This document shows, piece by piece, positions 3,662-14,295 of a DNA stretch of 18,227 bases. This DNA is from Bacillota bacterium (GTDB lineage Bacteria > Bacillota_I > Bacilli_A > Acholeplasmatales > Acholeplasmataceae): NCBI GenBank assembly GCA_006226985.1, contig SBGC01000166.1:1-18227 (forward strand), written 5' to 3'. Within the stretch, counting starts at the first letter, position 1; each line of letters opens with the position of its first letter. The notes under the pieces were generated by a model that made no database searches, was not told the DNA's origin, and saw nothing but the letters and a program-made list of their open reading frames with translations. The translations under genes and the position numbers were made by a program.

Positions 3662-5230
3662 TTACAATTTGTCATGCACCTTATTACAATATGGGCATAT
3701 AATATCACCATGTTGATTAATCTTTGTAATATTTCGGTAATACATGAGTGATTCAACTTGTTTTTCATAGTACCAATAATCATCGTGTTTAAAATCTGAT
3801 TTATGAAGCACGTATTTCTTTAAATGTGCAATATCTGTATAGAAAAATGGTTTATGCGTTTCTTGACAGGTACCTTCTTTAATTTGCGTCATACAATTGT
3901 TGCATTGATAAAAACCTTGGTATGGATCTTTTGAAAGTTGACCACCACAAAATGGACATATATCTCTCTTTGAGTCTGAATAGATCATACCTTTTAAGAT
4001 AACCTGTTGAATTCTTCTAAAGGAATCAATATCTTCCATGCTAATATGAACATCTTTTCGCTCAAGATAATCATCATCAAACTGATTAACGACAACCACC
4101 TCATTGATTCCATAATTTTTTTTATACGTATTAAATGCTTTAACATCGTATTCACTACCTATAAGAATCATCTTATAGGTTTTTTCTTTTGTGAAATATA
4201 ACAATGTTTCTTTTTTATTATTACTAAAAATATCTAACTTCCAGCCTTTATATGTAAAAGACATATCGAGTGAGCTCAAGTTTATCTTAAATTGAGGGTC
4301 GATTTCAAAATTAAAATGTCCAACAGCAAATATCGTAAGTATTTGAACATACGATAAATAGTTCTCTCTCATGAGATCAAAATCGACTGCAACATCTTTT
4401 TCTTCAAGTTTGACCTGATTACCTAATAAATACTTATACGTCTTATATACCAATCGGTAATCTTTTTGCATCAAAAAGATGTTCGTTTTCTTTAAAGCGA
4501 GATTCCGATTTCTTGTAAGATTTTTGCGGTAGATAGGTTTATGCAATCTTGGATTAATCGCTTGACTAATGATCGATAGTTCATTGAGTAATTCTTTGGA
4601 TAAATTAAAATATTGACTAAAATCTCGAATATAACCTGTATGTAATTTACCTAATGCTAAAAAATAATTCACATGATTGACTTTTTCAAGTAAATTAAAC
4701 TTCATAATATTACTTGCATATAATAGACTGTTTAAAGTTCTACGATTTCTTTTGATGAGTGAGAGAATTTCATCAATAAAATTACAGAAAATAATGTTTT
4801 CATAAATACTGTAATCATCTTCATAGATACGTGTAAGTAATTTTCGAGGTTTTACACCTTTTTGAGTTAAATTTGAAACATATTGGCTATGATTAGCTAG
4901 ATGAAGTAAAGTATTTTGATTAATAATACGCGTATTTTCTACAGGTAATACATCATCAGAATCTTTTAAGATGATAATAGGTTTACTAAAAATACGTTTA
5001 ATCGCTGGTGTTGATTTACGAATGTATGCGATCATTTTACTTAGTTTTTGGAAGTCAAAGTCGGGTTCAATAGAAAACAATGTCATATCATGAACGACAT
5101 AATAGTCAAACTCTATATAGGACACTATTTGATGTTTCTTAACAAAATGATTGATACCCTCTAAAAGGGATGCGAAACGTTGATACTCTTCAATATTCAT
5201 TTTGTTAATACTTTTGTTCGGATTATTCAT
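3662..5230 (-). CDS. McrC/DUF2357-like partner protein with C-terminal zinc ribbons
   Basis: A 522-aa soluble protein, second gene of a coupled pair. The N-terminal region (about 1-135) is mixed alpha/beta. A central part is reminiscent of DUF2357/McrC-type proteins: YEDDYSIYENIIFCNFIDEI near 136-155 is like the family's E-N-R-F-containing helix, and a long basic helical stretch follows near 225-268. The C-terminus has a zinc ribbon, CPFC at 425-428 with CNNC at 443-446, then Cys455 and another CPYC at 512-515, so one or two zinc sites. I do not see a convincing PD-(D/E)xK nuclease motif, which canonical McrC proteins carry. Its ATG overlaps the end of the ATPase gene by 8 nt, indicating translational coupling and likely a complex. 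The family assignment comes from context plus weak motif resemblance. Confidence 0.55.
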   Translation of the reverse strand: MNNPNKSINKMNIEEYQRFASLLEGINHFVKKHQIVSYIEFDYYVVHDMTLFSIEPDFDFQKLSKMIAYIRKSTPAIKRIFSKPIIILKDSDDVLPVENTRIINQNTLLHLANHSQYVSNLTQKGVKPRKLLTRIYEDDYSIYENIIFCNFIDEILSLIKRNRRTLNSLLYASNIMKFNLLEKVNHVNYFLALGKLHTGYIRDFSQYFNLSKELLNELSIISQAINPRLHKPIYRKNLTRNRNLALKKTNIFLMQKDYRLVYKTYKYLLGNQVKLEEKDVAVDFDLMRENYLSYVQILTIFAVGHFNFEIDPQFKINLSSLDMSFTYKGWKLDIFSNNKKETLLYFTKEKTYKMILIGSEYDVKAFNTYKKNYGINEVVVVNQFDDDYLERKDVHISMEDIDSFRRIQQVILKGMIYSDSKRDICPFCGGQLSKDPYQGFYQCNNCMTQIKEGTCQETHKPFFYTDIAHLKKYVLHKSDFKHDDYWYYEKQVESLMYYRNITKINQHGDIICPYCNKVHDKL

Positions 5231-7910
5231 TATCTAGACGTTTAATAAACTCTGCACAAAGGTTCAAATTCAGTTTTTCAAATTCCATTTCAAGCTTTTC
5301 TTTATCATCAATGGTTTTAACTTCGAGTTTAGCTACAACTTTGCTGAGTAGTATTTTTTCAATGGCTTCACTCTCAACATCTTCTTTTGGAAAACACGCT
5401 TTATAAATATTGACGAATTCTTCGATTTGTTTTAAAATACGGTTCCCAAATGAAATGTTGTATGGAGCTAAAAGTGTTTCAACACTCTTAATGAGATCGC
5501 TATTTTCTGCATCAAAATTGCCACTTTCTTTCGCTGCATTGAAAAGAGTATTCATCGTTTGATAGTCATAAAATTGTTTCGAAATAGGGTTCGTGTAGTT
5601 ACGAACCTTTGGTGCACGTTTTGTAAAGTTCATCGTATGTGCACGGTCATAAACTTTATCAGAAATCACAAACGTTGATTCATCACGATTTGCAGTTCCG
5701 ATAAACCAAACATTAGGTGGAACTTTGAGTGTGTTTCCGTGATCTAATGCTAAATAGTCAATCTCTTGACTTTCTTCTTTTCGACTTAGTTTAATGTTGA
5801 TGAGTTTAATCTCTCGTTGATTCTCTTCATTTTCCATTAATGATAAGAAGTCTGAGAAATAATACTCAATACGCGATAAGTTCATTTCATCAAGCAAGAT
5901 AAATGTGAAAACATCACGGTTTAATGCAGCTTTATATAGCGCTAATGTAAACTTTTTAGGTGTATACTTCATGGAAAACTCATTATAATAACCTAATAAT
6001 TCGTTCTTGTCTTTCCATGATGATTCAACTTCAATGATTTCACAATTACCAAATACTGCTTCAGAAAATATCTTAGGTAAACTTGTTTTACCTGTCCCGG
6101 ACATACCTTGTAAAATAGAGAGACGGCTTGCTCCAAGCCCAGCAACAAACGTTGCGATATCTTCTGGCGTATAGGAAAGATGTAATCTCGAGTTTTTAGC
6201 ATACTCTACAATAAAATGAACGAGATCATTTAATGATGTATCTTTCGTTTTAAGTGCTTTTCGTTTCTCTAAATCTTGATGAAAAGCATCCATACGTGAA
6301 TCCAGTTCTGTGAATGCTGGACATGGATCAAATTGTTCAAAGTTATCTTCACTGTAAGGTTCACCAGATGACGACGTGCTCGAAGCTTCAGATGCATTTT
6401 CTGATGATGTAAGGTTGGCTTCTAATACACTTAAATCTTCTCGATCAAACGATTTTCTTAAAAACATCACAATTAAAACGACAAGAGATGCGATGAGTGC
6501 ATAGATGGCATCTGTACTAATTTTATAATCATATTCTAATACGCTAGGTAGGTCAATACCATAGAGTGCAAAAATCTCTATGAGTACACTTTGATTAATT
6601 TCTTTTGCTATTTGGAAATAATAACCTGAGATTGCAATAATAAAAACAAAGAAAATATTGACGATGGTTGCTAATTTTACCATTGAGCTAAATTGTTTAT
6701 GTTTTGATAAATAACTGGATAACGCTACAACAAGTGTTATACCTGTAGAAATTAACATCGTTACAAGTAAAAATGCAACCAAACGATAACCAGGATCTAA
6801 ATCTGCATAATCTCTTAAGATTTTTAACCCGGAAAGTTCAATAGAGTTTGTGTAATCTCCATATGATATTTGTATTTTAATAATATAGAGCAATAGCATT
6901 AATGTTGATACGATGGTTAATAAAAAGATATATAAAAGCGGTTCAATTCGAGGATATCTTACTTTTGATTCATCAATAGAGATTTGAGCGAAGGCGCTAT
7001 ATTTACCTCTAAAAATAGCATATACAAAAATGACAACACACATCAATAACATCGGAATATATGCCGATGTTTGTGAAGTTGATCCAACTAATGTGTAATA
7101 AGTGTCAAGTCCTAGACCTGTAATAAAGAAGATAATTGTCGAAATGAATATAAAATTAATTAAACTCTTTGATTTGGTTATAAATTTGGATTTGTCAAAG
7201 AAGTAATAGGTCAAACACTTAGCTAAATATAAAAATACACTTAAAAAGATAATAAAATTGACAAAGAAATAAATGATAACATCATAATTCATGTCACTTG
7301 AGAATAAGACAGAAACGATGATAGCACGATATGTTGTATCTAACTCAAGTGTGTAAAGAGGGATAAAGAAAGTGGTTAGAAATACTGCGATAGCAACTAA
7401 ATCAATAATGAATACACTTAAAGGTATCTTTGTTTCAGTTAATTTGATTTCTTTCTCGTCTTTTTCAAACTCTTTACTTTCTAATAACATCTTATTTCTA
7501 AAAATAAGTAGAACAAAGATGCCAGCCATTAATAAGAAGTTAAAAATAATCAATATAATAGCAAATACTGGTAAAGCGTTATAGCTTGATTGATAGACAA
7601 TTAAGCCAGTATCAAATCCTAAAAAGTAAATAAGTCCAGAAATGAAACCCCAGTTAGTTTTTTTGAAGAAACTAAGTACAGATAATAAAATAGGCACAAG
7701 CGATACATAAAATACCCATCTAAAGACATAGGAAAAGATATTGATGTATAACCCATCAGATAATCTACCTGCTAAAGACATCATCGTATCATCTTGATAC
7801 GGAGCTTTTAATTTTAATGACATGACCCAAAGGTTAATAAAAAACATGATGATTAATACTCCAATGATGAGTGTTCCAATGAACCATGATTTTTTAAATA
7901 AGGTTTTCAT
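5223..7910 (-). CDS. Polytopic membrane protein fused to an McrB-like AAA+ ATPase
   Basis: An 895-aa fusion. Residues 1-485 hold about 12 hydrophobic segments (around 9-30, 59-82, 87-106, 114-137, 163-186, 210-230, 250-268, 284-300, 323-344, 376-400, 410-431 and 469-484). A Ser/Glu-rich linker (about 495-525) leads to a cytoplasmic helical region and an AAA+ domain. Its motifs are Walker A GMSGTGKTS (602-610), Walker B ILLDEMN (671-677) followed by the McrB-typical LSRIEYYFSDFLSLME, sensor GTANRDEST (738-746) and an arginine-finger-like YDRA (754-757). The usual McrB GTPase signature reads N-T-A-D-R-S; here it is N-R-D-E-S-T, so nucleotide preference may differ. The ATG at 7910 has a strong AGGGGAA Shine-Dalgarno. 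The McrC/DUF2357-like partner overlaps its 3' end. A membrane-bound remodelling or defence machine is inferred. Confidence 0.85.
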   Translation of the reverse strand: MKTLFKKSWFIGTLIIGVLIIMFFINLWVMSLKLKAPYQDDTMMSLAGRLSDGLYINIFSYVFRWVFYVSLVPILLSVLSFFKKTNWGFISGLIYFLGFDTGLIVYQSSYNALPVFAIILIIFNFLLMAGIFVLLIFRNKMLLESKEFEKDEKEIKLTETKIPLSVFIIDLVAIAVFLTTFFIPLYTLELDTTYRAIIVSVLFSSDMNYDVIIYFFVNFIIFLSVFLYLAKCLTYYFFDKSKFITKSKSLINFIFISTIIFFITGLGLDTYYTLVGSTSQTSAYIPMLLMCVVIFVYAIFRGKYSAFAQISIDESKVRYPRIEPLLYIFLLTIVSTLMLLLYIIKIQISYGDYTNSIELSGLKILRDYADLDPGYRLVAFLLVTMLISTGITLVVALSSYLSKHKQFSSMVKLATIVNIFFVFIIAISGYYFQIAKEINQSVLIEIFALYGIDLPSVLEYDYKISTDAIYALIASLVVLIVMFLRKSFDREDLSVLEANLTSSENASEASSTSSSGEPYSEDNFEQFDPCPAFTELDSRMDAFHQDLEKRKALKTKDTSLNDLVHFIVEYAKNSRLHLSYTPEDIATFVAGLGASRLSILQGMSGTGKTSLPKIFSEAVFGNCEIIEVESSWKDKNELLGYYNEFSMKYTPKKFTLALYKAALNRDVFTFILLDEMNLSRIEYYFSDFLSLMENEENQREIKLINIKLSRKEESQEIDYLALDHGNTLKVPPNVWFIGTANRDESTFVISDKVYDRAHTMNFTKRAPKVRNYTNPISKQFYDYQTMNTLFNAAKESGNFDAENSDLIKSVETLLAPYNISFGNRILKQIEEFVNIYKACFPKEDVESEAIEKILLSKVVAKLEVKTIDDKEKLEMEFEKLNLNLCAEFIKRLDNE

Positions 7911-8170: not shown

Positions 8171-8737
8171 TTAATTTCCTATAGGTTTAGAATTTATTGG
8201 AGTATTCTTATCTATATAATCCCTTTTTGTGACGATGAGGTATGTACTTCCAACACCAAATGCAATCAATATTGAAAAAGGTACTATCATCGTCCGATAA
8301 AATCTATTTTTAAGTGACTGATATACTGCGATTAGGTTAGATACCCCAGTTTCATAATTCAAAAATGTGATACCTTCTTTTTCAATCATGACTATTGGAT
8401 AATCACTGGAATCACCCCAACCATGACGACCATATATTAGTGTAATCTGATTACCTACTTGAATCGAATCTAAACCTCCATTTTCTACAAAAACTACGAG
8501 GTTTTGTCCTTCTAGTACATAATATGATTCAGTAAAATTTAGTTGTTCTATAACCACTTGTTCATCTTCTACGACGATGTTGCCTATTGTTATGGTGATT
8601 GTTTGATAATCGTTAAATTGTGAATAGTCTACATGAAAACTCAAAAGAGCTGATCCAATAAGGTACAAAACAACATTAATGACTAACGTGATGATTGTCC
8701 CAATATGAAAAAATATGGATAATAAAGTTCTTTTCAT
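8171..8737 (-). CDS. Two-helix membrane protein with an extracellular beta-rich domain, unknown
   Basis: A 188-aa protein with a hydrophobic segment near residues 10-33 and a second near 148-168. Between them lie about 110 residues rich in alternating beta pattern (TITITIGNIVVEDEQVVIEQ, and LVVFVENGGLDSIQVGNQ). The likely topology places this central domain outside and both ends inside, with a short basic C-terminal tail. I do not recognise a family; a small surface or nutrient-sensing protein is possible. The start follows a short AT-rich leader containing GGAGT-TAT-ACTCC-type inverted repeats (8772-8784). It is a single gene with its own terminator, at the edge of the tRNA-Thr accessory region. 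Confidence 0.65.
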   Translation of the reverse strand: MKRTLLSIFFHIGTIITLVINVVLYLIGSALLSFHVDYSQFNDYQTITITIGNIVVEDEQVVIEQLNFTESYYVLEGQNLVVFVENGGLDSIQVGNQITLIYGRHGWGDSSDYPIVMIEKEGITFLNYETGVSNLIAVYQSLKNRFYRTMIVPFSILIAFGVGSTYLIVTKRDYIDKNTPINSKPIGN

Positions 8738-9093
8738 AATTTGTATCTATACTCAAACACTTTTACTATTTGGAGTATAACTCCCTTTCTTCCTATTATT
8801 ATTGTAGTTTAAAGAATTCGATGACTATATGCAAAAAGTGGTGCCGAAAAGATGACCCGAAGTTTATACATATACTTTTAAAATTTATCACCTAAATGAA
8901 TTGTCTTTTTCTTTATATAAATATGTTTTCTGACAACAATAATCCTTTACCCTGCTGTCTATGGCAATAAATTGTAATATTTTTAATCATGATACTATCA
9001 GAACATGAAGAAGTATTACTTCGGACTCAACATGTAGTTTTCTATCAATGTATTCGAAAAATACCCTTTATGAGGAATGCTCTGTATAACTAA
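8738..9093. other. Gene-free stretch holding a tRNA 3'-end fragment
   Basis: About 356 nt between two minus-strand genes. It holds the leader of the 8171-8737 gene with an imperfect palindrome at 8772-8784 (GGAGT/ACTCC arms). It also holds the 36-nt degenerate tRNA-Thr 3' end at 8839-8874. The rest (8875-9093) shows no ORF, hairpin or promoter that I can support and may be eroded coding sequence. Confidence 0.5.
8839..8874 (-). repeat. Degenerate tRNA-Thr 3'-end fragment, copy 1
   Basis: Read on the minus strand, this ends in TTTCGGC-A-CCA, identical to the acceptor 3' strand, discriminator and CCA of the intact tRNA-Thr at 11840-11915. It is preceded by a T-loop-like TTCGGGT in the correct register. 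The T-stem no longer pairs and no 5' half exists. It matches copy 2 (10746-10781) at 32 of 36 positions, including TTTATACATATA on the plus strand, which is not in the tRNA. The two fragments therefore share a common history, as expected for attachment-site remnants or a duplicated segment. Confidence 0.7.
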
Positions 9094-9855
9094 CTATGAA
9101 TTATTGATTGTATCAATATATGGTTGTATGATTGATTTTACTAATTCTGACTGTTCATGTACTGATAGATCGAGGTTATATGAAAATAAATCTTGTATAT
9201 TAAAACCCGGATAAAACAAAGTATAGTTATTTTCATGAATATCAAAATCAGAGTAATAATCACTATCACTAGGTCTAGTGAAAATCAAATAACATTTATT
9301 GACATCAAGTTCCTTTGGATAATTTATGTAATAGTAAGTGAGATATGATGAGTATGAACCACCTCGAACAACAATATAATCTTGATTCATATGACCTATA
9401 AGATTTTCAATGATTTCAATTTGATAATGTGTAGCAACTTTGTCCAACTCGAGTCCATCACTCGTAGTTGTTTTTATCTTATTTAAAACTCGAATAATTT
9501 TTATGTCTGTAAAGTTTTCTAAAGCTGTTAAAGGATTCGAAATATCTATAAATAATGGGGTGGATTCCAATATCGTCCATTTTGCATGAAGTGTAATATT
9601 CGTTTCGATGGCCTGATTAAAATCAAATAGCTGATTCTCAAAATACCAACCTTCAAAAATCCAAGATTGAGAAGGACTTACAAACTGCGGATCTATGGCT
9701 TGTTTTCCATGTTTTATTGTTTGTGGTTCTATCGCACTTAAATGAGGATGTTCCATTGTCATACTAAAAGAAACAAGATACGTTTTATTTTCTCTGCATG
9801 CCACTAAAAATAAGATGACAAATATACTTAATATCAATATGCAACTTTTTCTCAT
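9094..9855 (-). CDS. Secreted lipoprotein with an InlB B-repeat-like domain
   Basis: A 253-aa protein beginning with a type II signal peptide: basic MRKS, hydrophobic ILILSIFVILF, then lipobox L-V-A-C with the lipidated Cys at about residue 20. Residues about 24-92 resemble a Listeria-Bacteroides (InlB B / Flg_new) repeat: a strand, then IKHGKQAIDP, then W-I-F-E-G-W-Y-F and a closing N-I-T-L-H-A-K-W. The remaining 160 residues (including YIVVRGGSYSSYLTYYYINY and a C-terminal helix) match nothing I recognise. It is anchored on the outer face of the membrane. Its ATG overlaps the TGA of the upstream protease remnant (ATGA), so the two were one operon. The remnant's reading frame is broken, which may affect translation of this gene. 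Confidence 0.8.
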   Translation of the reverse strand: MRKSCILILSIFVILFLVACRENKTYLVSFSMTMEHPHLSAIEPQTIKHGKQAIDPQFVSPSQSWIFEGWYFENQLFDFNQAIETNITLHAKWTILESTPLFIDISNPLTALENFTDIKIIRVLNKIKTTTSDGLELDKVATHYQIEIIENLIGHMNQDYIVVRGGSYSSYLTYYYINYPKELDVNKCYLIFTRPSDSDYYSDFDIHENNYTLFYPGFNIQDLFSYNLDLSVHEQSELVKSIIQPYIDTINNS

Positions 9856-10381
9856 AATGGGTTAAAACCTTCCTTCCATCTTTGATGATACAACCTAATA
9901 TCGACAGGTCCCAACTTATCGACCTCATTATAACCATCCTTCATTAAACTCCCATAATAATTATTTGGAAGATGTGGTAAACCTAAAGCATGACCAATTT
10001 CATGTGCTATCACATATACTCTCTTTGCCATATGTGTTTGACCAATCCAATTGTCAAAATAGAAAGAGTTTAGCTTAATTTCTAAATATTCATAACTATA
10101 GCTACCGTATATGTTAGTGTTACTAATAAATATTTCTCTAGCTATTATAGTAGAATCCATAAAATTGTTAGTAATATATACCTTCCCAGAATCTAAAATA
10201 TTCCAAATATTTTGGATTCTTCGATAATAATCCCTTTAAAATCATGGTTAGTATCATACACCTTATTGTCATATTAGGCATAGTTTCTAATTACTTCTAT
10301 CTCTTGAACTGAATTATTAACGGACTGAACCATCACAGTGAATAACAAAAAAATCGAAACGTTAAACAGTTTAGTTACCAT
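9852..10381 (-). pseudogene. Broken secreted matrixin-like zinc metalloprotease
   Basis: Two pieces of one gene. From an ATG at 10381, preceded by AGGGGG and a good promoter, the frame encodes a signal peptide, MVTKLFNVSIFLLFTVMVQS, and continues NNSVQEIEVIRNYA to a TAA at 10276-10274. The frame past that stop stays coding-like (YDNKVYDTNHDFKG) until about 10210. There a shift is needed to enter the frame reading RIQNIWNILDSGKVYITNNF, which runs into the catalytic part. That part has the full zinc motif HEIGHALGLPH (about 10005-9973) and a Met-turn-like SLM, ending in TGA at 9852. At least one nonsense change and one frameshift separate export signal from catalytic domain. The intact-looking 102-aa ORF (9852-10160) lacks a signal peptide. 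A sequencing error could mimic part of this, but two independent lesions make decay likelier. Confidence 0.72.
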
Positions 10382-10745: not shown

Positions 10746-10781
10746 TGGTGCCGAAAAGAGAATCCGAATTTTATACATATA
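10746..10781 (-). repeat. Degenerate tRNA-Thr 3'-end fragment, copy 2
   Basis: The minus strand reads T-loop-like TTCGGAT, then TCTCT, TTTCGGC, A and CCA, aligning without gaps to positions 54-76 of the intact tRNA-Thr 1,094 nt away. No D-arm or anticodon arm remains. Together with copy A it forms a continuous duplicate of tRNA 3' end plus downstream flank, in the same orientation as the intact gene. Confidence 0.75.
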
Positions 10782-10921: not shown

Positions 10922-11506
10922 TTAACCTACTATTTCAATTATTGCATAAAATGAAACGAAGCCAAAATAGAGTATAGACAAGAAACTAAAAAGCAAGGCA
11001 AGTAAGGCAATTAATTTACTTTTTTGTTTGAACTGTAAATGGATTATTTGTAAATTTCGATAAATCAAGAATAAGCCTATGACGATGCTTATAAGTCTTA
11101 TGGTATTTGTTAGTATTTGCATCATAACTAATTCAGTTTTAAAACTAGAGCCTATAACTAGTAAAGTGAAGATTAAGATGAATATCGAGAAAATGATGCT
11201 ATCAAAACCAGGTTTTTGCGATAATGGTTCACTTTTAATATTTTGTGATTCAATGACTGTTTTTTTATAATCCCCAAAAGTGAAATAACTGAATAAAAGT
11301 CGATTGCTGATTAACCAAGAAATACGTTTACTTTGATTTTTTTTGATCTTTTTTATCTCTTCAGCACGTTCCTCACTATTTAGTTCTTGTAACAATTTCC
11401 TGTGCTTATATGCCAAAATCGTATTGAATAAAAGTGATAATAGCGAAAAGAGAACATAAATCAAAATTATTGAAGCAACAGCATTGAAAATAATCTCATG
11501 AATCAT
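10922..11506 (-). CDS. Four-helix membrane protein with a central cytoplasmic basic region, unknown
   Basis: A 194-aa protein with hydrophobic segments near residues 8-30, 103-120, 132-148 and 165-190. Between the first and second lies a roughly 70-residue highly charged region (LNSEERAEEIKKIKKNQSKR) likely in the cytoplasm. No family is recognised. The ATG at 11506 is preceded by a GGGGGTG Shine-Dalgarno, and an extended -10 promoter lies about 35 nt upstream. It is the only gene between the tRNA fragment at 10746 and the intact tRNA-Thr, so it may have arrived with that segment. Function is unknown; a small immunity or stress membrane protein is one possibility, unsupported by motifs. Confidence 0.65.
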   Translation of the reverse strand: MIHEIIFNAVASIILIYVLFSLLSLLFNTILAYKHRKLLQELNSEERAEEIKKIKKNQSKRISWLISNRLLFSYFTFGDYKKTVIESQNIKSEPLSQKPGFDSIIFSIFILIFTLLVIGSSFKTELVMMQILTNTIRLISIVIGLFLIYRNLQIIHLQFKQKSKLIALLALLFSFLSILYFGFVSFYAIIEIVG

Positions 11507-11541
11507 CTTGACACCCCCAAATATATAAACTAATTTAGTTC

Positions 11542-11550
11542 AGTATAACA
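11542..11550 (-). promoter_or_regulatory. Extended -10 promoter for the 10922-11506 gene
   Basis: Minus-strand TGTTATACT gives TG-N before a TATACT -10 box, about 35 nt upstream of the ATG at 11506. The -35 region is poor, as is common for extended -10 promoters. Confidence 0.5.
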
Positions 11551-11699
11551 TATTTATTAACTCGCATTACATAGTGTAAAAATTTTTGGTGAAAGTGAAA
11601 AACGAATTAATACTCATAAAATTGATAGAAAAGCATAAAATTGTTTGTGCTGATTTCGATGAAGTGTTTACAAGAAATTTCAAGCGTCACGTCAAAACA

Positions 11700-11839
11700 C
11701 AAATCACCTCTTTTGACCTTAGATGTTCATGATTTATATTTTTACCTATTGTATCAAATAATCATCACTCTTCTTGACCATAAATATAAAAGACCATTGA
11801 ACATCAATGATCTTTCTCAAAAATGAATTATCTTAATTA
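11700..11839. repeat. tRNA-Thr downstream segment (copy B, next to the intact tRNA)
   Basis: Direct repeat of 10607-10745, here attached to the complete tRNA and its working terminator. Copy B is probably the ancestral or restored arrangement. The match runs to the tRNA 3' end and continues into it for about 25 nt. Confidence 0.75.
11785..11815 (-). terminator. Terminator of tRNA-Thr transcription
   Basis: A 12-bp stem with one G-T wobble (arms 11789-11800 and 11804-11815) and a 3-nt loop, followed on the minus strand by TTTTATATTTA. It lies about 25 nt past the tRNA-Thr 3' end. The hairpin recurs in copy A at 10694-10720. Confidence 0.75.
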
Positions 11840-11915
11840 TGGTGCCGAAAATAGGACTCGAACCTACGACCTGCTGATTACGAGACAGCTGCTCTACCAA
11901 CTGAGCTATTTCGGC
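11840..11915 (-). tRNA. tRNA-Thr (anticodon CGT)
   Basis: A complete 76-nt cloverleaf with encoded CCA. The acceptor stem is GCCGAAA/TTTCGGC with discriminator A, the D-arm is GCTC-AGTTGGTA-GAGC, and the anticodon loop CTCGTAA has CGT at 11882-11880. The T-arm is GTAGG/CCTAT with TTCGAGT loop, where the second pair is T-A and the closing pairs are intact. There is a T-T mismatch at 31/39 of the anticodon stem. Overall it closely resembles the E. coli tRNA-Thr(CGT). It decodes ACG, a rare codon in such an AT-rich genome. It lies 32 nt after the methyltransferase-like gene and may share its transcript. Its 3' end is repeated twice downstream. Confidence 0.95.
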
Positions 11916-11947
11916 CTGATGGTTGATTGATCAAATAACTAATTAAT

Positions 11948-12550
11948 TCATCTTAACATAAAAATATAATTTGTTGGGTTGAATTTATACTTTGGTCCTT
12001 TCATTTCAGTTTTAACTTTATCAAGATCTATGGATCTATTTCGTGCAAATTTGAAATATTTGTCGAGTTCATTTGTTTCAATGGTATTATTTGATAAAAC
12101 TACGCCTATGAAATCATAATCATCATCTAAATATGCTAATGTAGCATCTCCATGACTATCATTACAAAGTAATATTCCACCTTTTTTCAAATATCTTTTG
12201 GTAGCCTGTCCAACAAATCCTGCAAATTGTGAAATGATCATATCAACCTGTTCTATGTTGATATAATCTGTGTAGTCAGACCCAAAAAACTTTATCGAGC
12301 ATTCTTCTGAATACACTTTATGTTTCTCAACATATCTTTTGATTTCATCCATATGATTAAAAAAATGAATAGCTCCATTGAAGTTATCAATATATGTTAC
12401 ATCAGGTAACACAAAGGATGGACTAATATCAATATAACTACCGGGATATAACGCTCTCGTAGCATTAAATTTTCTAGCTACTAAACTATACAATGATTTT
12501 CTGTCACCGATTTTTGCGATATAGTCTTCAAATTCTTTCATACAATTCAT
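11948..12550 (-). CDS. Class I SAM-methyltransferase-like protein, function unknown
   Basis: A 200-aa soluble protein. The N-terminal part holds a motif I-like segment, Y-P-G-S-Y-I-D-I-S-P-S-F-V-L-P followed by VTYIDN (about residues 35-56). An acidic-strand region with VDMIISQFAGFVG (near 103-115) resembles motif IV, and KKGGILLCNDSHGDA (near 122-136) fits the strand-loop after it. This pattern is shared by a family of stand-alone methyltransferase-fold proteins, with no substrate known to me. The ATG at 12550 has AGGAG eight nucleotides upstream. The gene sits between tRNA-Leu (70 nt before) and tRNA-Thr (32 nt after), all on the same strand with no terminator between, so one transcript is possible. 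A nucleic-acid substrate would be a guess from position only. Confidence 0.55.
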   Translation of the reverse strand: MNCMKEFEDYIAKIGDRKSLYSLVARKFNATRALYPGSYIDISPSFVLPDVTYIDNFNGAIHFFNHMDEIKRYVEKHKVYSEECSIKFFGSDYTDYINIEQVDMIISQFAGFVGQATKRYLKKGGILLCNDSHGDATLAYLDDDYDFIGVVLSNNTIETNELDKYFKFARNRSIDLDKVKTEMKGPKYKFNPTNYIFMLR

Positions 12551-12619
12551 GGTAAGTTCTCCTATTCATTGCATCCTGTAAAAAAGTTTCATCTTTACAA
12601 TGTTAATTTTCTATAGTAA

Positions 12620-12705
12620 TGGTGCAGATGATGAGATTTGAACTCACATGACCTATTGGTCACAGGCTTCTGAGACCTGCGTGTCTACCGTTCCACCACA
12701 TCTGC
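12620..12705 (-). tRNA. tRNA-Leu (anticodon CAG)
   Basis: An 86-nt class II tRNA with encoded CCA and a long variable arm. The acceptor is GCAGATG/CATCTGC with discriminator A. The anticodon stem CAGGT/GCCTG (last pair T-G) holds the loop CTCAGAA with CAG at 12672-12670. The variable arm has GACC/GGTC pairing, and the T-arm is GTGAG/CTCAT with TTCAAAT loop. The T-GGTGGAA start and GGTAGACACG are typical of bacterial tRNA-Leu. It decodes CUG. A TATAAT -10 lies 11 nt upstream of its 5' end. Confidence 0.96.
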
Positions 12706-12715
12706 TTTATGTATT

Positions 12716-12721
12716 ATTATA
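12716..12721 (-). promoter_or_regulatory. -10 box of the tRNA-Leu promoter
   Basis: A perfect minus-strand TATAAT sits 11 nt upstream of the mature tRNA-Leu 5' end. The -35 is not clear, because the upstream sequence overlaps the T-run of the gnd terminator. Confidence 0.55.
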
Positions 12722-12737
12722 TACCTTTTTTAAGCAT

Positions 12738-12766
12738 AAAAAAACTGTTTGCTACAAACAGTTTTT
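12738..12766 (-). terminator. Intrinsic terminator of the kinase-gnd operon
   Basis: A stem of about 12 bp (arms 12740-12751 and 12755-12766, AAACTGTTTG type) with a 3-nt loop, followed on the minus strand by a T-run (the A-run at 12738-12744). It lies about 80 nt past the gnd stop and directly before the tRNA-Leu promoter. Confidence 0.85.
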
Positions 12767-12843
12767 GTTATAATTCATCTTCTTGTTATGGCTCTATTCT
12801 GTGTATTTAATAGGAATGAACATCTTTCAATGACTTTCTTTCG

Positions 12844-14295
12844 TTACACATTATATGTTGTAGATGATGTGTCGCCACCACGTCCAGTCCAATTCGTATG
12901 AAAAAATAGACCCCGTGGCTTATCTATTCTCTCATAGGTGTGCGCACCAAAGAAATCTCTTTGTGCTTGTAAAAGATTTGAAGGTAATTTTTCTGTCTTA
13001 TATCCATCAAAATAACTGAGCCCTGCGGCCATCGAAGGTGTAGGAATACCATTTAACACTGCGGTTGAGACAACTTTGCGCCATGAATCTGTAAGTGATT
13101 CAATAGTGTTTTTGAAGTATGGGTCTAATAAGAGATTAGTTAATTGAGGATTCTTATCAAATGCTTCTTTTATTTTTCCTAAAAATACTGAACGAATGAT
13201 ACATCCTCCACGCCACATGAGAGCAATGCCACCATAGTTTAAATTCCAGTTATATGTTTGTGCGGATGCTCTCATAAGGGCATACCCTTGTGCATAGCTA
13301 ATAATCTTAGATGCATATAAAGCTTTACGAATATCTTCAATAAAAGCTTTTTTATCACCAGTAAATGTAATTGGTGTTTGTTTAAACACCTTGGATGCGA
13401 TCACACGTTCATCCTTCATAGAAGATAAGAATCTCGAATAAACAGATTCACCAATAAGTGTTAGTGGAACGCTTTCTTCCATCGATGTAACGGCTGTCCA
13501 TTTGCCAGTCCCTTTTTGTCCTGCCGTATCTAATATCTTATCAACAAGAGGTTGTCCATCTTCATCTTTAACAGCTAAAATATCTGCTGTAATTTCGATT
13601 AAATAACTATCGAGTTCTGTCTTATTCCATGTTTTAAATACTTCATGCATTTCATCAGCACTCATGCCTAAAACATTTCTCATTAAATGATATGCTTCGG
13701 TAATGAGTTGAATATCTCCGTATTCAATACCATTATGGACCATTTTAACAAAATGACCAGCACCATCTTCTCCAACCCAGTCACAGCATACAGATCCATC
13801 TTCAATCTTAGCTGCGATTGCTTGAAAAATAGGTTTCACATGTGGCCATGCTTCTTTTGATCCACCTGGCATAATGGAAGGTCCGAGTAACGCTCCTTCT
13901 TCTCCACCAGAAACGCCTGTTCCAATATAATATAACCCTTTAGATTCAACATAAGCTGTACGTCTTGCTGTATCTGGATAATGGGAATTTCCACCATCAA
14001 TAATGATATCGCCTTTTTCTAAATAGGGTATAAGTTGTTCGATAACATCATCAACAGGTTGACCTGCTTTAATCATCATCATCACTTTTCTTGGTTTTTC
14101 AAGTGAATCAACAAGTTCTTTTATAGAAGATGTTCCAATTATTGATTTTCCTTTTGCACGACCATTTAAGAAATGATCAACTGCTTCTTGACGTCTCGCG
14201 TATGCAGTCACTAAAAATCCTTTAGATGCCATGTTTAAAACAAGGTTTTCACCCATCACTGCAATACCAATAAGTCCAATATCTGATTTTCTCAT
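12844..14295 (-). CDS. gnd: 6-phosphogluconate dehydrogenase, decarboxylating
   Basis: Oxidatively decarboxylates 6-phosphogluconate to ribulose 5-phosphate with reduction of NADP (or NAD), in the cytoplasm as a dimer. The 483-aa length is that of the long GndA class. Motifs are the dinucleotide fold GIAVMG at 10-15, IIDGGNSHYPDT (about 97-109), GVSGGEEGALLGPSIMPGG (127-145), and the catalytic block FVKMVHNGIEYGD (182-194) with Lys184, His187, Asn188 and Glu191. The C-terminal segment, with HTYERID and HTNWTGRGG, completes the partner subunit's active site. The ATG at 14295 has an AAAGGAG about ten nucleotides upstream that overlaps the stop of the kinase gene, so the two are co-transcribed and probably translationally coupled. 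Cofactor choice is not certain. Confidence 0.96.
   Translation of the reverse strand: MRKSDIGLIGIAVMGENLVLNMASKGFLVTAYARRQEAVDHFLNGRAKGKSIIGTSSIKELVDSLEKPRKVMMMIKAGQPVDDVIEQLIPYLEKGDIIIDGGNSHYPDTARRTAYVESKGLYYIGTGVSGGEEGALLGPSIMPGGSKEAWPHVKPIFQAIAAKIEDGSVCCDWVGEDGAGHFVKMVHNGIEYGDIQLITEAYHLMRNVLGMSADEMHEVFKTWNKTELDSYLIEITADILAVKDEDGQPLVDKILDTAGQKGTGKWTAVTSMEESVPLTLIGESVYSRFLSSMKDERVIASKVFKQTPITFTGDKKAFIEDIRKALYASKIISYAQGYALMRASAQTYNWNLNYGGIALMWRGGCIIRSVFLGKIKEAFDKNPQLTNLLLDPYFKNTIESLTDSWRKVVSTAVLNGIPTPSMAAGLSYFDGYKTEKLPSNLLQAQRDFFGAHTYERIDKPRGLFFHTNWTGRGGDTSSTTYNV

Follow-up and report, generated by a model that had tools for sequence, protein, structure and literature searches.

A major branch of the McrB-like GTPases, to which the CoCoNuT and CoCoPALM systems belong, has NxD instead of NxxD as its signature, and the residue after it is usually E or D (Bell et al. 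2024; PMC11090510, here and below for the sections of that article drawn on). As of those sections, no NxD McrB has been characterized. The hallmark of the CoCoNuTs is a long coiled-coil, which is either part of McrB or McrC or the product of an adjacent gene, and RNA targeting has been proposed for them; where the McrC nuclease of a coiled-coil NxD system is absent or inactive, a HEPN or other nuclease is always encoded beside it (PMC11090510, section 7). The DUF2357 domain of McrC activates the McrB hexamer, and E. coli McrB carries a methylcytosine reader domain (PMC11090510). Here we describe a two-gene locus in an 18,227-nt stretch of DNA, hereafter the window, which is one contig (SBGC01000166.1; C73 in our numbering) of the Bacillota genome GCA_006226985.1 (1.29 Mb, completeness 88%; named relatives are Acholeplasmataceae, Tenericutes bacterium MO-XQ and Izemoplasmatales). 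The pair is a variant within the NxD McrBC-like branch that has neither the nuclease neighbour of a CoCoNuT, nor the operon of a CoCoPALM, nor the make-up of classic McrBC.

A membrane-embedded ATPase and its partner form one unit

The locus encodes a membrane-embedded NxD McrB-like AAA+ protein of 895 aa (5223..7910) and a CnuC/McrC-like zinc-ribbon partner of 522 aa (3662..5230), both on the minus strand, as are all features of the two genes given below. The two open reading frames share 8 nt and lie at the coordinates given in a preliminary description made from the DNA letters. That description had also read about 12 membrane helices, a linker rich in Ser and a full AAA+ core of McrB type into the ATPase, overlapping by 8 nt a partner with zinc ribbons, all of which was confirmed.

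Residues 8-486 of the ATPase (6453..7889) constitute the membrane region. By hydropathy it contains 12 helices, and 11 to 13 across 45 aligned orthologs (12 in 34 of them). In a single-chain AlphaFold2 model (mean predicted local distance difference test score, pLDDT, of 78), long helices extend as far as residue 486, the linker is of low confidence and an AAA+ fold is present. Both approaches support the proposed siting of an McrB-like ATPase in the membrane. The Ser/acid-rich linker (491-526; 6333..6440) is variable, with a mean identity of 18% and low pLDDT, and is followed by the AAA+ core and lid (557-895; 5226..6242), identified by fold matches. Among the 45 orthologs, mean identity is 46% in the membrane region, 84% in residues 557-765 of the AAA+ part and 73% in residues 766-895. 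Walker A (GMSGTGKTS, 602-610; 6081..6107) is invariant, as are residues 673-677 of the Walker B block (LLDEMN, 672-677; 5880..5897), and the signature N741-R-D743-E744 (5679..5690) shows no variation in the 45 ortholog rows. This signature had been taken for an altered GTPase motif; the residues were seen correctly, but they are no oddity, as NRDE is the NxD variant that defines the known branch (PMC11090510). Three other readings of the membrane region were rejected: internal repeats (hhalign among its three thirds, probabilities below 1%), similarity to Kv channels (E 0.03 to 0.13, due to hydrophobic composition) and stand-alone relatives, for which the 12 matches of 410 to 858 aa were taken as fragments or shortened members of the same protein family.

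Co-occurrence of the pair in other genomes, on which the preliminary description had beforehand made its reading depend, was observed: ATPase and partner are adjacent in 23/26 loci, with gaps of -32 to +16 nt, and in the remaining three the stretch is cut at the partner. Across 18 loci the identity matrix of the partner correlates with those of the membrane domain (rho 0.94) and the AAA domain (rho 0.87), values reached in 0/2000 permutations in either case. The two proteins are co-inherited. The gene upstream of the pair lies on the same strand in 11/17 cases and the downstream gene in 11/23.

The partner has lost the canonical nuclease site

Residues 62-260 of the partner (4451..5047) form a DUF2357-type region, the part common to CoCoPALM McrC proteins. 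Residues 305-420 (3971..4318) resemble a PD-(D/E)xK domain without its catalytic acid, as judged from the strand order of the model, a weak structural match to McrC and conservation. The C-terminal residues 421-522 (3665..3970) are a zinc-ribbon region with the motifs CPFC, CNNC and CPYC and the single C455; its seven cysteines are invariant in 55/55 rows. The partner has no direct Pfam match. Its profile aligns with three McrC-type proteins that match PF09823 (4.8e-10, 5.3e-6 and, marginally below the cut-off, 5.2e-5), and hhalign pairs it with the CnuC-like protein of a human-gut contig (L097) over residues 66-517 with an E value of 9e-26; the CoCoPALM McrC of the window's own genome also matches PF09823. 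These profile alignments indicate that the partner is homologous to McrC/DUF2357 proteins, and together with the cysteines they bear out the earlier view of an McrC/DUF2357-type protein with zinc ribbons. Foldseek found nothing for the partner at E 0.001 or better, and matches to eL43-type proteins were dismissed, being confined to the ribbon and having E values of 0.06 or worse.

Where active McrC has DxK, the partner has F346-T347-K348 (4187..4195). In the E. coli and Klebsiella-plasmid McrC proteins the site reads VDAKYY, and the strand of the partner that corresponds by eye has YFTK. An acid occupies position 346 in 0/55 rows, and K348 is kept in 54/55. Hence, the catalytic acid of the nuclease-like domain is lost family-wide, and the statement that no nuclease motif is evident in the partner holds for the canonical site. 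Mean pairwise identity is 71% for residues 62-260, 47% for 261-304, 45% for 305-400 and 79% for 401-420. The low values at 261-304 and 305-400 suit a role in recognition more than in catalysis. Within the nuclease-like domain, E377, R405, R406, Q408 and Q409 are nevertheless invariant (55/55), so a non-canonical active site may remain.

Comparison with CoCoNuT, CoCoPALM and classic McrBC systems

Type II CoCoNuTs (CnuB-CnuC; PMC11090510) were represented by two loci whose type was assigned from their operons, the L097 contig, deposited as phage (unverified), and plasmid p96k of Deinococcus sp. AJ005 (L096). Both share with the window the NxD motif and the CnuB-CnuC gene order, their AAA domains are 39% and 37% identical to that of the window ATPase, and the match of the partner to L097 covers most of its length, SFRR.Q and the zinc cysteines included. 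In contrast to the 12-helix anchor of the window ATPase, the CnuB proteins of L097 and L096 have no membrane helix by hydropathy. Their operons add an SF1 (superfamily 1) helicase and another gene (in L097 a kinase with CxxC motifs), none of which accompanies the window pair. Where a CoCoNuT has its coiled-coil, the ATPase has the membrane helices of residues 8-486, and the model of the partner contains one 39-residue helix (143-181). The nuclease neighbour of inactive-McrC CoCoNuTs is missing as well: no nuclease recurs beside window-type pairs among the 25 commonest of 77 neighbour families, where single cases are possible.

CoCoPALM-like copies (L032-L036, of which one lies on contig C14 of the window's genome) also share the NxD motif, an AAA domain about 38-43% identical, a membrane-linked McrB and the DUF2357-type region at residues about 62-260 (CoCoPALMs as described in PMC11090510). 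Their McrB, however, has a short membrane segment at the N-terminus and not 12 helices, their McrC has no CxxC motifs, and unlike the window pair they share an operon with genes for secreted and signal-peptidase-like proteins. The signal-peptidase and pilus-assembly genes that mark a CoCoPALM operon are not common neighbours in our 26 loci. E. coli K-12 McrB (L102) is more distant still, with the NxxD motif and only 22% identity to the window ATPase (E 1e-4). E. coli McrC keeps DAK and does not align with the partner profile, and the active D...DxK nuclease of classic McrBC is replaced by F346 at the acid position. The missing DxK acid agrees with the earlier proposal that the pair does not perform classic modified-DNA restriction.

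A tree built from 41 AAA domains unites the 11 window-type rows in one clade (99/100). They fall within a clade of 35 rows (100/99) together with 17 CoCoPALM-like rows, a group of four McrB proteins with four membrane helices and two CoCoNuT-like CnuB rows. The same clade took in E. coli McrB, on a branch of length 10 that leads us to distrust its placement, and there are several other long branches. The row closest to the window-type ATPases is a human-gut contig deposited as phage, with weak support (83/85). A joint clade of window-type ATPases with the four-helix group is disfavoured (p 0.04), while joint clades with the CoCoNuT-like rows (p 0.5) or all CoCoPALM rows (p 0.30) are not rejected. 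The window ATPase groups with NxD relatives.

Profile searches, on which the preliminary description had also staked its reading, place the pair beside a described family, for which we found no experimental function in the sections of PMC11090510 drawn on. Neither an NxD McrB with multiple membrane helices nor a description of this pair was found in the open-access main texts searched, the parts of PMC12458937 consulted among them. PDC-M26A, a candidate model of PADLOC without description, has matches both in the AAA part (E 1.8e-51) and in the CoCoPALM-like McrB (E 6.2e-40); no paper under that name was found in the open-access literature searched.

Patchy distribution and horizontal transfer

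Within the taxonomic family of the window, partner orthologs (E <1e-40) occur in 15/88 genomes, namely in 10/20 of genus g1, 4/5 of g10 and one of g13; the partner is missing from seven genomes of g1 or g10 that are 93-99% complete. At the level of the class, orthologs (E <1e-50) are found in 22/395 sampled genomes from eight families, and 67 further genomes have weaker matches only, mostly to residues about 62-260. In a sample of the phylum, 20/157 genomes gave matches at E 1e-20, every one from the same class. At E 0.001, 564 related proteins were counted.

In the tree of 20 partners, monophyly is rejected for family f22 (p-AU 3.8e-7, approximately unbiased test) and for genus g10 (p 0.004), while f2 and f3 cohere and f1 is neither supported nor rejected. 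RpoB from the same 20 genomes groups both f22 (0.985) and g10 (0.995). The sister species G022 and G025 are 97% identical in RpoB, 95% in CoCoPALM McrB and 89% in its McrC, and 68% in the partner; the corresponding values for G200 and G225 are 96, 93, 90 and 66%. As a control, correlation with RpoB over eight genomes gave a rho of 0.82 for CoCoPALM-like McrB, 0.81 for McrC and 0.69 for the partner. Over 190 pairs the correlation of partner and RpoB is 0.27, and the positive values of 0.69 and 0.27 point to some vertical signal as well. The distribution is thus patchy and partly horizontal, and the pair is mobile. With 22/395 genomes of the class and the rejected monophyly of f22 and g10, this is the accessory, mobile distribution that suits defence. 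The partner was matched in three plasmid and one phage record, none over 80% of the query, and the 23 pattern matches in viral contigs, from only two patterns, were not confirmed.

Proposed function and alternatives

We lean, with modest confidence, towards the pair being a mobile, membrane-anchored defence system of the NxD McrBC type, built like CnuB/CnuC with a 12-helix anchor replacing the coiled-coils and without a canonical nuclease. How it would act is more tentative. It is possible, though we would not call it probable, that the membrane itself is the effector, with the AAA+ ring and 12-helix domain translating nucleic-acid recognition by the inactivated McrC into a disrupted membrane or a block to entry. 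In the favoured defence reading as a whole, the AAA+ domains would form a membrane-tethered ring, and the DUF2357-type stalk of the partner would activate it as McrC does McrB; given that activation, partner-stimulated hydrolysis is likely. Recognition of phage nucleic acid, perhaps RNA, could fall to the zinc ribbons together with the variable nuclease-like domain. The motor would then act on the membrane domain, and the response would take place at the membrane rather than by cleavage, either as blocked entry or as a loss of membrane integrity with abortive infection.

The cousins in the same branch suggest a different function, in which the pair assembles or exports surface proteins and the AAA+ ring powers or gates a step via the membrane domain. 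Contig C14 of the same genome carries a CoCoPALM-like operon with an NxD McrB, a DUF2357 McrC, SipW-type signal-peptidase-like proteins, FAWF-type secreted proteins and a very large surface protein; the peptidase and pilin-like readings were made by eye, and Pfam gave no peptidase match and camelysin below the cut-off (E 0.025). The four-helix NxD McrB group, with a CxxC-bearing partner of 374-477 aa, also stands by secreted proteins (L023:4578-12899, L112, L113, L120), in L023, L112 and L113 with an ABC transporter nearby. We nevertheless regard such an envelope role as unlikely for the window pair, since genes of this kind are missing as common neighbours around it; agreement with RpoB is also closer for the CoCoPALM copies than for the pair, and the four-helix group is the one with which a joint clade is disfavoured. 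A defence system with a hidden nuclease, which would use a non-canonical active site or recruit a host nuclease while the membrane merely positions the machine where phage DNA enters, fits the conserved K348, E377 and R405/R406/Q408/Q409 and the rule that CoCoNuTs with an inactive McrC always stand beside another nuclease (PMC11090510). Against it, the DxK acid is absent from every row, few parts of the partner are as poorly conserved as residues 305-400 (45%, compared with 71% for 62-260) and no nuclease gene recurs among the commonest neighbours; we consider it quite unlikely. Least probable, in our view, is a MoxR-like chaperone or membrane stress machine unrelated to phages, which sits poorly with an McrC-like partner, the patchy distribution in family and class and the broken ATPase copy of G022.

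Set against the CoCoNuT rule, the 26 loci present a family that has neither a canonical nuclease site nor a recurrent nuclease neighbour, with a large membrane domain in place. If the mobile pair is indeed a defence system, an McrBC motor has been uncoupled from cleavage, and the motor's own action becomes testable. The family stands between the CoCoNuT line, presumed to target RNA, and the envelope-linked CoCoPALM line.

Other NxD loci showed further arrangements. In L023 the CoCoPALM-like operon with the four-helix McrB directly follows a window-type pair. The CoCoPALM-like loci L032, L033 and L036 (genomes G038, G040 and G024) contain two copies of NxD McrB, separated by about 14-15 kb (the second copy of L036 is cut) and flanking a secreted protein of 2.3 kilo-residues and several small FAWF-type secreted proteins. 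In L037 (G009), two NxD McrB-like genes (8331-9680 and 11489-12922) lie between large surface-protein genes; they differ at their N-termini but not, in the alignment behind the tree, in their AAA stretches.

Genomic surroundings

Up to two neighbours on each side of the pairs, of 1500 aa or shorter, gave 76 open reading frames, of which 75 were scanned after one ATPase fragment (L021) had been dropped. No Pfam family occurs in more than 3/75 neighbours, the commonest being Rce1-like, among the 25 commonest of 77 families, and no gene cluster other than the pair itself recurs in more than 5/26 loci. PADLOC on the 75 neighbours gave two-member matches to Csa3, HTH_VI, RmrA and mad8 among 25 of 76 families.

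A survey of defence islands, suggested in the preliminary description, had a mixed outcome, with clear defence neighbours at a single site, shared by two sister species, and few at other loci. In G025 (L012/L039) and G022 (L040) the pair adjoins one operon, in opposite orientations. An AbiEii/DUF6088 pair is present at this site in both genomes, accompanied by DRT3a and DRT3b in G025 and by HipA and a helix-turn-helix gene in G022, whose ATPase copy is broken. The operon was present in 6/8 genomes searched, G022 among them, and in four other genomes its flank holds different genes (G026 shows under 5 kb). The variable site by the operon, filled in L012/L040 with AbiEii/DUF6088, HipA or DRT3 and elsewhere with unrelated genes, is likely a defence hotspot of this family. 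Other loci yielded few known defence genes, namely a match to PDC-S37 at L006, one to SoFic among the scanned neighbours, and a mad3 match at L008 that resembles a general ABC ATPase.

A tRNA neighbourhood was rejected as a general feature, tRNA genes being found in 2/25 loci; an Rfam scan of the window plus four loci returned two tRNAs and nothing else. The window itself holds a tRNA-Thr(CGT) gene and two downstream remnants of its 3' end (8839-8861, 10746-10768 and 11840-11915). The remnant search, allowing up to three mismatches, gave these three matches, compared with 0 in 200 shuffles. As two 3'-end remnants are present, each preceded by a similar ATATATGTATAAA stretch, islets have probably been inserted in tandem at the tRNA-Thr gene. 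The pair lies 0.9 kb past the last remnant, and no further remnant was found in the window. Between both remnants sits a 102-aa open reading frame (9852-10160, minus strand) with an M10-type metallopeptidase motif just over the Pfam cut-off, apparently the peptidase end only.

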